Below are positions 7,244-9,700 of a stretch of 46,703 bases of DNA, in pieces. Every line of letters starts with the position of its first letter. Positions within the stretch are counted from its first letter, which is position 1. The position numbers were made by a program, and so were the translations under genes. The stretch comes from an uncultured Eubacteriales bacterium (lineage in GTDB: Bacteria > Bacillota_I > Bacilli_A > RF39 > UBA660), in contig OMST01000015.1 of NCBI GenBank assembly GCA_900313815.1, forward strand, positions 1 to 46,703, given 5' to 3'. The notes below the pieces were generated by a model. It saw only the letters and a list, made by a program, of their open reading frames with translations, was not told the DNA's origin and did not search any database.

Positions 7244-7271
7244 AAAATAGTTAGCAAAAGCTAACTATTTT
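7244..7271. terminator. Terminator after the peptide cassette
   Basis: Perfect 12-base stem AAAATAGTTAGC / GCTAACTATTTT with an AAAA loop, working in either direction. It lies three bases past the second peptide gene and separates the cassette from yqfC. Confidence 0.85.
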
Positions 7272-7274
7272 ATA

Positions 7275-7427
7275 TTAACAATAACTTCCATCTTGTTGTC
7301 TTCTAAGAGCACTTCCTAAAGATCTTCCTAGTTCTAAAGCAAAAGAAAGAGCCCTAACTACTCCATTAAGAATAGTTCCAGATATTGATCCTCCTCCTTT
7401 TATTTCTATTAATTCATTATCTGTCAT
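7275..7427 (-). CDS. Double-glycine leader peptide 2 (bacteriocin-like)
   Basis: A 50-residue peptide. The leader MTDNELIEIKGG follows the double-glycine pattern (L at -7, I at -4, GG at -2/-1). The predicted mature part is 38 residues, starts GSISGTILNG with a GxxxG motif, holds an amphipathic helix with four Arg, and ends in DGSYC with a single Cys. The ATG shares one base with the stop of the peptide upstream (TAATG), so the two are coupled. A C39 exporter is encoded just upstream. Class IIb bacteriocin subunit or secreted signal are both possible; no immunity gene is evident. Confidence 0.8.
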   Translation of the reverse strand: MTDNELIEIKGGGSISGTILNGVVRALSFALELGRSLGSALRRQQDGSYC

Positions 7428-7561
7428 TATCTTCTACATGCAACTGGATTAACATACCCATCAAATAAACCTATCAAGAATGCCGCAATAGCTCCTCCTA
7501 CTCCTACTGCTACCCAGTTAAAGCCTCCTTTCACTTCTAATAATTCACTTTTTTCTAACAT
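7427..7561 (-). CDS. Double-glycine leader peptide 1 (bacteriocin-like)
   Basis: A 44-residue peptide with leader MLEKSELLEVKGG, an excellent double-glycine leader (L at -7, V at -4). The predicted 31-residue mature peptide begins FNWVAVGVGG, continues with a Gly/Ala-rich hydrophobic helix (GGAIAAFLIG) and ends NPVACRR with one Cys. AAAGGAG precedes the ATG, which lies inside the last codons of the exporter gene, so translation is coupled to it. Its partner peptide follows with a one-base overlap. Each mature peptide has one C-terminal Cys, so a linked pair or homodimers are possible. Confidence 0.82.
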   Translation of the reverse strand: MLEKSELLEVKGGFNWVAVGVGGAIAAFLIGLFDGYVNPVACRR

Positions 7562-9618
7562 ACATTCTCCTTTCTCACTTCATATTTTTCATTAAACAAA
7601 TCAATTATTTCTTTCTTATGAGAAACATATATAATTGTTTTATCGTGATAAATATTTAGTATTTTATTTAATATCTCTTTTTCTTCATCTATATCAACTT
7701 CTGATAAAGCCTCATCTAAAATAATATAATTACTATTTTTAAGTAAACTTCTAGCTAATATTATTTTTTGCCTTTCTCCTCCTGATATATTGAAGCCATT
7801 ATCTTCTATCACAAAGTTATCTCTAAATTTATTTCTATCTCTTAATTTATCTAAATTACATAAATGAATTATTTTCTCATAATCTTCATCACTTATATCT
7901 CTATAATAAATAATATTATTTTTTAAAGTATTATTATTTATATAACTATTTTGAGATACATAAGTAAAACTATTAGATATTATATTTCTATTAATATCTT
8001 TTAAATTAATATTATTAATAAAAATATTTCCATTATATTCTTCATTATATTTTAGAATAGTTTTTATTATAGTACTCTTACCAAAACCACTCTGACCATA
8101 TATTAAAAATTTACTGCCATATTTAATACTTATATTTATATTATTAAATAATTTATCTATTCCATTATAACTATAAGATAAACTATTAATTTGAATGTCT
8201 CCTTTAATACATTTGTTAGTTTGATCATATGTTTTACTTTTATATATTAGTAAATCATTTATTCTATTATAAATATTCTTTAAATGATTTATTTTAGGTT
8301 CAAAATCTAATATATCTTTTAAAGGTTCAGTGAAATAATATACTATTGAATTAAATAATATAAACTCACCTATAGTAATATTATTTTTATATATAAATAT
8401 AGCACTTACAAACATAGAAATAATATATGAAACATTAACTATTAAATCTTTTAGAAAGTTTTGATTATTCATCGTATTAGAATAATTTTTTAACTTAAAA
8501 GAATTATCAATATTTTTAATATCTAATTCTCTTAATACTCTATTAGTAATATTTATATTCAAATTACTCTCGTAACTATAAATACTTTCATTTAAACATT
8601 TATTATATACTGAATCGCTCACCAATATGTTCTCACTTTCTATAATATATTTCTTTCTATATACTAGAACTATTATTAAGTATAAAATCATTTCTATAAA
8701 ATAAATAATAAATAGTTTAACATTAATAAATAATAGAATAATAACGCTTATAACGATTAAAATAATATCAGAAGATATATTTACCATTAAATTGGATATT
8801 ATCTCTTTAAAAGTCTTTAAATCGTTTATACGATTTAATACATCAGCACTTGATTTAGATTTAAAAAATTGATATGGAAGATTAAATAACTTTCTAGTAA
8901 CACCATTTATAAATTTAACTGATATATTATGTATAATATCAATTAAATATTTACCTCTAATTAAAGATAAAATATTTTTAACCAAAACTGATATTAAAAA
9001 CATAACACTAACGATAAATAAATATTTAATATTATAATTAGGAATAATATAGTCAATTATTATCATGGAGAAATAATTAAGACCTATTCCAATAAAAAGA
9101 ATTATTAAAGATAATACTATTAATTTAAGTATTCTGCTCCTTTCTTCTAATATAAACGGTTTTAAACAATTATAAATATTCTCTTTAGATAAATTATTAC
9201 CTACATATTTAATTGGATATATAAATATAGCTGTATCTAAATAGATTTTATTAAACTCATCTATAGTTATTTTATCTACTTTAGAAGAAGGATCCATTAT
9301 GAATAGTTTATCTTTATCTACTTTATATACCACTATAAAGTGATACATATTATCTTTTAATACATGACATATAATAGGGAAAGATATTTTTTTAGTTACT
9401 ATGTCATCACAAGATAAATGTATCCCATAACCATCAAAACCATATAATTTAGAACCATTAATAATATTAAAAGCATTAGTTCCATCCCTATCGGTTTTTA
9501 AATTGTAAGTTACTTCTTCATGTGAGGCCTCACATCCATAATATTTCATTATAGATAATAAACATGAAGGACCACAATCTTTAAAACCATTTTGTGCTAC
9601 AAAGTATTTATTAGTCAT
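7555..9618 (-). CDS. Peptidase C39 / ABC exporter for double-glycine peptides
   Basis: A 687-residue bifunctional processing exporter. The N-terminal C39 peptidase shows Q9, C15 (in DCGPSC), H93 and D109, the full catalytic set that cuts after Gly-Gly. Six membrane helices occupy about residues 160-450, and the ATPase has Walker A GQSGFGKST, signature ISGGERQ, Walker B IILDEA and an H-loop SHK. It exports the two leader peptides encoded directly downstream. No separate HlyD-type accessory protein is encoded next to it. AGGAGG precedes the ATG. It is isoleucine- and asparagine-rich, even more AT-biased than most neighbours. Confidence 0.95.
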   Translation of the reverse strand: MTNKYFVAQNGFKDCGPSCLLSIMKYYGCEASHEEVTYNLKTDRDGTNAFNIINGSKLYGFDGYGIHLSCDDIVTKKISFPIICHVLKDNMYHFIVVYKVDKDKLFIMDPSSKVDKITIDEFNKIYLDTAIFIYPIKYVGNNLSKENIYNCLKPFILEERSRILKLIVLSLIILFIGIGLNYFSMIIIDYIIPNYNIKYLFIVSVMFLISVLVKNILSLIRGKYLIDIIHNISVKFINGVTRKLFNLPYQFFKSKSSADVLNRINDLKTFKEIISNLMVNISSDIILIVISVIILLFINVKLFIIYFIEMILYLIIVLVYRKKYIIESENILVSDSVYNKCLNESIYSYESNLNINITNRVLRELDIKNIDNSFKLKNYSNTMNNQNFLKDLIVNVSYIISMFVSAIFIYKNNITIGEFILFNSIVYYFTEPLKDILDFEPKINHLKNIYNRINDLLIYKSKTYDQTNKCIKGDIQINSLSYSYNGIDKLFNNINISIKYGSKFLIYGQSGFGKSTIIKTILKYNEEYNGNIFINNINLKDINRNIISNSFTYVSQNSYINNNTLKNNIIYYRDISDEDYEKIIHLCNLDKLRDRNKFRDNFVIEDNGFNISGGERQKIILARSLLKNSNYIILDEALSEVDIDEEKEILNKILNIYHDKTIIYVSHKKEIIDLFNEKYEVRKENVC

Positions 9619-9679
9619 TTAACCCTCCTATTATTATAATTAGAGTTAAATTATAAAAACACTACTTTTGCAAATAAAA

Positions 9680-9700
9680 AGAATACTTTTTAAGTATTCT
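9680..9700 (-). terminator. Terminator of prepilin gene 1
   Basis: Stem AGAATACTT / AAGTATTCT followed by TTTTTATTT on the minus strand. The stem includes part of the stop codon. Confidence 0.8.

Follow-up and report, generated by a model that had tools for sequence, protein, structure and literature searches.

A double-glycine peptide pair of class IIb-like anatomy, conserved behind a C39 exporter across one order of gut bacteria

Two-peptide systems and the cassette in the window

Bacteriocins usually show a patchy and diversifying distribution, and are seen as accessory, fast-changing weapons. In the systems known so far, C39 exporters and the double-glycine (GG) leaders of their substrates serve the release of bacteriocins or pheromones, and the usual partners of these exporters are membrane-fusion or adaptor proteins. 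The described systems that come closest to the locus studied here are the class IIb bacteriocins, e.g. lactococcin G, plantaricin EF/JK and carnobacteriocin XY (PMC8538875), in which two adjacent GG precursors are found with a C39 ABC exporter and an accessory fusion protein, and the mature helical peptides, of about 30-40 aa, nearly all carry a GxxxG motif. The immunity proteins of this class are membrane proteins, the smallest of which, CbnZ of carnobacteriocin XY, has 42 aa and one transmembrane (TM) segment (PMC8538875). In gallocin A (GllA1/GllA2/GIP), two GG peptides with two cysteines each form intramolecular bonds, and GIP is a proposed structural mimic of the toxin (PMC10100652).

By comparison, the window, i.e. 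the whole stretch of 46,703 nucleotides that was analyzed, has on its minus strand a C39 peptidase/ABC exporter gene followed by two small genes for GG peptides of 44 and 50 aa (Table 1). The sequence-only reading had claimed that these genes overlap each other and the exporter gene, and the open reading frames (ORFs) are exactly as it described: the exporter and peptide 1 genes overlap by seven bases, and those of peptides 1 and 2 by one (TAATG). The leader pattern common to both peptides, ..EL..[IV]xGG, was matched by two of the 131 small ORFs of the window, which are exactly peptides 1 and 2; in 150 Markov-1 random windows with the window's own dinucleotide composition, not one of some 30,000 small ORFs matched it. 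Both peptides are also conserved across the whole order (see below). Small size is what speaks for the view that the ORFs are chance readings beside an exporter of something else; this view is contradicted by the conservation of leaders and mature parts in hundreds of genomes, by the clean random windows and by the low dN/dS in close pairs, and we give it practically no credence.

Table 1. Positions of the cassette, its flanking elements and two further proteins of the window.
Feature	Position	Strand	Basis or remark
C39 peptidase-containing ABC exporter, 687 aa	7555..9618	-	Pfam, structure matches, genus survey
Peptide 1 precursor, 44 aa	7427..7561	-	leader MLEKSELLEVKGG at 7523-7561
Peptide 2 precursor, 50 aa	7275..7427	-	leader MTDNELIEIKGG at 7392-7427
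Perfect 12-bp inverted repeat AAAATAGTTAGC-AAAA-GCTAACTATTTT	7244..7271	.	read directly from sequence; just 3' of peptide 2
Intergenic region 5' of exporter, TATAAT-like boxes and GGAGG ribosome-binding site	9619..9698	-	from sequence
Type IV prepilin-like protein, 386 aa	9699..10859		
Protein with low-complexity tail, 257 aa	17986..18759		

To judge from the boxes upstream of the exporter gene, the cassette probably has its own promoter; promoter-like matches in that region were no commoner than in shuffled sequences. The inverted repeat probably marks the end of the transcript, and was not called in a terminator scan. Directly upstream of the exporter is the prepilin-like protein, whose N-terminus bears a methylation motif and whose long C-terminal region matches no Pfam family. 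Elsewhere in the window, the 257-aa protein combines one N-terminal TM segment with a long Pro/Gln/Ala-rich low-complexity tail.

Mature peptide 1, FNWVAVGVGGAIAAFLIGLFDGYVNPVACRR (FNW...ACRR; calculated 3253.8 Da, reduced), is hydrophobic with one likely transmembrane stretch and one Cys, and its conserved end is GxxDGYxRPxxC. Mature peptide 2, GSISGTILNGVVRALSFALELGRSLGSALRRQQDGSYC (GSI...GSYC; calculated 3953.4 Da, reduced), carries [DE]LGRxLG[ST]xxRR and a C-terminal Cys, and was modelled as one long helix over precursor residues 14-46. The GxxxG motif that had been pointed out in peptide 2 is there (GRSLG); it is not confined to that peptide, as peptide 1 has GLFDG, so that both mature peptides have the motif typical of class IIb, (near-)invariant in each. 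The observation of one Cys near each C-terminus also held. Among sequences gathered without reference to Cys, this single residue is present in all 65 of peptide 1 and in 72 of the 73 of peptide 2, the only exception being a second-copy peptide 2 in genus g46; the most divergent pair (G024) keeps both cysteines. The near-invariance of the Cys in both peptides makes a thiol function likely, and it is attractive to infer a bond between the cysteines of the two peptides. Most class IIb peptides, in contrast, have no Cys, while the gallocin type, with its two cysteines per peptide and disulphide hairpin, differs from a pair with one Cys each whose peptide 2 is one long helix.

Certain genera show variants of the pair. 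A second peptide pair is present in genus g46 (L159, L175, L176, L177 and L178), as if the two peptides duplicate together. In its peptide 1' the Cys is shifted into the GxxxG motif (FCG), and in peptide 2' of L176 and L177 a Cys sits within the motif (IGCQxG), the other peptide 2' copies being without the C-terminal Cys. An extra, Cys-less GG peptide of 39-44 aa lies between peptides 1 and 2 in L166 and L169 (genus g74). The peptide 2 leaders of L014/L030 and L015 end in Ala-Gly rather than Gly-Gly, with normal mature parts.

No solved structure was found for either peptide, and searches of the curated bacteriocin families of Pfam and NCBIfam gave no match over the cut-off, the sub-threshold scores being 15.8 against 27.1 bits for PF10439, 14.8 against 21.5 for TIGR03949 and 13.7 against 37 for NF038034. 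The PMC literature yielded no paper containing the peptide motifs, and nothing relevant on RF39 in combination with bacteriocin.

Distribution, inheritance and selection

Of the 386 genomes of the family, 356, from 144 of 150 genera, had peptide 2 by profile search, nearly always as a single copy; in the order sample, which contains only this one family, 183 of 193 genomes had it. For peptide 1 the count was 177 of 193 family genomes, and the genomes without it essentially coincide with those without peptide 2, i.e. the adjacent leader-peptide genes are kept together. No other family of the class or phylum samples had peptide 2 by profile search, bar three borderline hits that mostly cover just the leader, in small, mycoplasma-like genomes (G432:C1:578356, G760:C6:4531 and G758:C1:519605), which are possibly substrates of Mbov_0121-type exporters. 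When 84,980 species were scanned for the core motif of peptide 2, 37 relatives came up, all of them MAGs, labelled Bacilli, Bacillales, Tenericutes, Mollicutes, Erysipelotrichaceae, Firmicutes or Mycoplasmatota. To judge from genome size, the labels as uncultured Bacilli and the presence of sporulation genes, the order carrying the cassette is probably GTDB RF39, whose members are predicted to be walled and spore-forming (PMC10868615).

Repeated loss of the cassette was considered and mostly withdrawn. Among ten peptide-negative genomes, the downstream neighbor YqeY was missing too in six, and contig breaks lay just upstream of rpsU/yqeY in two. Because the neighbor is also missing or the contig ends at the locus, most of the checked negatives are assembly gaps, with G082 and G169 alone remaining as possible losses.

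Conserved neighbors, which the sequence-only reading had proposed to look for in relatives, turned out to be a fixed set of housekeeping genes. In many genera the order is rsmD, exporter, gene X (see below), peptide 1, peptide 2, rpsU and yqeY, and yqfC-yqfD come next in some genomes. The peptide 2 gene of the window is followed directly by yqfC-yqfD, a VanZ-like gene and ybeY-dgkA-cdd-era (yqfC, yqfD and VanZ identified by Pfam, the other four read by eye). As yqfC-yqfD adjoin peptide 2 here, the window copy appears to occupy the ancestral site and to have lost the intervening rpsU-yqeY.

Distances between exporters follow those between RsmD proteins (Mantel r 0.87, 0/2000 permutations), dN/dS is well below 1 for both peptides in close pairs, and the mature peptides retain about 50% identity even where that of the exporters is down to 35-40%. 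Plasmid and phage searches found no copy of the cassette, and on this and the tracking of RsmD a mobile or horizontally spread locus was rejected. Inheritance of the cassette is vertical, and purifying selection acts on it throughout the one order. Two findings that had been named in advance as fatal to the peptide genes, leaders not kept in relatives and peptide frames broken beside an intact exporter, were not made: the leaders are kept, and no such broken frame was seen in the relatives examined. An ordinary class IIb bacteriocin cassette, recently acquired by the strain, would have the anatomy observed; this reading is contradicted by the near-universal vertical distribution over the order, and with neither plasmid or phage copies nor diversification found, we hold it to be very improbable.

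The exporter and the genes X and M of relatives

The exporter has Peptidase_C39 (99.6 bits), ABC_membrane and ABC_tran domains in one chain, all over the Pfam gathering cut-offs, and a putative catalytic triad, C15/H93/D109, assigned by motif. The three domains in one chain place it among the PCATs, as do its predicted cognate GG substrates, whose genes lie next to that of the exporter or overlap it and are retained by relatives. Its closest solved structures, both aligned over the full length, are ComA (8hf4, 1.1e-80) and PCAT1 (4ry2, 1.3e-76), with which it shares the domain order and clear homology, but not the cargo. Its score against NCBIfam TIGR01193 is 343 bits with a cut-off of 524, and it is therefore a divergent member of the broad PCAT kind. 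The second-best NCBIfam match is NF045998, the Mbov_0121-family peptidase ABC transporter of mollicutes, which the exporter resembles, but below the cut-off (297 against 500 bits); no homologue of peptide 2 was found in other families of the phylum.

Within the genus, 17 of 18 genomes have the exporter in one copy each, and both peptides lie directly 3' of it wherever the contig continues. Each of the 16 peptide-positive genomes tested has a single strong C39 exporter domain, which lies at the locus; in most of the negatives there is none. In L020 (G007:C5:56491-58539) both peptides are intact and the exporter gene has one in-frame TGA near its N-terminus, for which a sequencing error, decay or another cause may be responsible. 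Only seven of about 258 genomes from other families of the class have a comparable exporter. The peptides were also considered as cargo of C39 exporters in other families, and this was rejected: those exporters carry unrelated GG peptides, mostly together with full-length HlyD-type partners.

The likeness to ComA, which exports a competence pheromone, raises the alternative that one or both peptides are cell-cell signals with a receptor encoded elsewhere, and pneumococcal GG peptides without a neighboring receptor are known (PMC7595303). Against this, a receptor kinase and regulator such as accompany CSP/ComC are not among the conserved neighbors in the 37 named loci, nor do two-component genes lie beside the window cassette. 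Furthermore, both peptides are long and hydrophobic, a signal so similar across about 150 genera would convey no species identity, and gene M (see below) would be left unexplained. A signaling role accordingly appears distinctly unlikely to us.

The description of the cassette as two peptides and an exporter holds for the window, whereas relatives have a larger set. In many of them (e.g. L042, L135 and L141) a gene for a protein of about 140 aa, here called X, lies between exporter and peptide 1. Pfam searches gave no match for X. It was modelled as one TM helix and a beta domain (pLDDT 84.8), and in a fold search its top 16 VIA matches were all membrane-fusion or adaptor proteins, including Spr0693, BesA, MacA, CusB, AcrA and EmrA, with a middling best Z of 8.3 (Spr0693). 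Given that these matches are all of the adaptor kind, X is best read as a minimal accessory, or mini membrane-fusion, protein of the exporter, and a role in immunity, also considered, was rejected in favor of this. Its predicted beta domain matches the adaptor beta-barrel of HlyD/LcnD/MacA-type proteins, but X is much reduced by comparison, with only about 140 aa and a model without the coiled-coil hairpin. X is absent from the locus in the window genus.

Among 81 non-redundant peptide 2 loci, 32 (e.g. L042, L032, L141 and L199) have a second additional gene, M, which is situated 3' of peptide 2 and encodes a leaderless protein of 42-62 aa. In all 32, its start codon lies at offset -1 from the Cys codon of peptide 2, being formed by A or G and the TG of that codon. 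That this overlap alone accounts for the conservation of the peptide 2 Cys was considered and rejected, as loci lacking M, those of the window genus among them, retain the residue too. M combines a basic N-terminus and a TM segment with a tail in which the invariant G..G..R of peptide 2 recurs; the tail aligns with peptide 2 profiles (hhalign probability 93.6%, E 2e-7), and M gave no match to the peptide 1 profile.

As small one-TM immunity proteins and mimic-type ones are both known for two-peptide bacteriocins, M is a good candidate for a mimic-type immunity protein. It is similar to CbnZ in size and in its single TM segment (PMC8538875), and gallocin shares with the cassette a proposed immunity peptide of the mimic type (PMC10100652), but M, unlike GIP, has no leader, includes a TM helix and copies the C-terminal helix of peptide 2 alone. 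As remarked on from the sequence, no immunity gene was recognized in the window, where M is missing from the locus as in the rest of the genus, and the candidate was found in relatives. An M profile search of the genus returned only peptide 2 tails and unrelated TM segments, the window genome being 67.5% complete.

Possible roles of the pair

In its anatomy the locus is a class IIb system, and in its population genetics a core gene set. Of the two roles suggested from the sequence, class IIb bacteriocin or secreted signal, what stands is an exported GG pair of class IIb-like anatomy; near-universal, mostly single-copy, vertical and under purifying selection, it does not look like an ordinary bacteriocin locus. 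It departs from class IIb also in its mini rather than full-length accessory protein.

The explanation we prefer, held with about even confidence, is that of a conserved, class IIb-like, membrane-active pair aimed at other bacteria and fixed as core equipment. The locus would be the form taken in the window genus by an ancestral cassette that comprises the C39 exporter, X (in many genera), peptide 1, peptide 2 and M (in about 40% of loci). The exporter would cleave both leaders after GG and release the hydrophobic peptide 1 and the long helical peptide 2, which may pair in the membrane through their GxxxG faces and possibly be locked by a disulphide between the C-terminal cysteines. The pair would then act on other bacteria as a membrane-permeabilizing unit of the class IIb type, and M, where present, may occupy the place of peptide 2 and so protect the producer. 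In favor of this are the two adjacent GG precursors behind a C39 exporter that co-occurs with them, the invariant GxxxG of each peptide, the adaptor-like fold of X, the homology of M to peptide 2, as in mimic immunity, and the second peptide pairs in g46. The near-universal, single-copy and conserved presence is atypical of bacteriocins, on the other hand, the window genus has neither M nor another recognizable immunity gene beside the cassette, and no curated bacteriocin family was matched over its cut-off.

More tentatively, and in our estimate rather unlikely, the pair is, whether from the outset or through later change, a core cellular component, namely a C39-exported and possibly disulphide-locked two-helix membrane unit, whose peptide 2 helix would be re-presented on a membrane anchor by M, with the M start codon read from the Cys codon. 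A related possibility, to be regarded as unlikely as well, is an endogenous envelope component, where the pair would insert in the producer's own membrane as a small complex of two helices, serving as a channel, scaffold or part of the spore or envelope, and M would be an anchored partner with the same helix instead of an immunity protein. Core distribution and purifying selection would suit such a component, and so would the fixed place among housekeeping genes (rsmD...rpsU-yqeY, and yqfC-yqfD in the window), the lack of an immunity gene in the window genus, the G..G..R face shared by M and peptide 2, and the walled, spore-forming nature predicted for RF39 (PMC10868615). It is harder to reconcile with the released bacteriocins and pheromones for which C39/GG systems are otherwise known, with leader cleavage and export, which endogenous membrane peptides do not obviously need, and with the absence of M from more than half of the loci.

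On present grounds, classing the pair as a bacteriocin would be premature. What sets the cassette apart is its unusual distribution, the invariant single Cys of each peptide and the coupled mimic gene in relatives. A cassette of bacteriocin-like build is in this case conserved, and almost universally present, throughout a large order of gut bacteria with reduced genomes, RF39 being without cultured representatives (PMC10868615). An antibacterial pair would amount to a constitutive weapon shared by the whole order, possibly with mimic immunity; otherwise, C39-exported peptides would be found in a new core role. In both cases they offer a testable handle on organisms whose interactions are little known, and their length allows synthesis.
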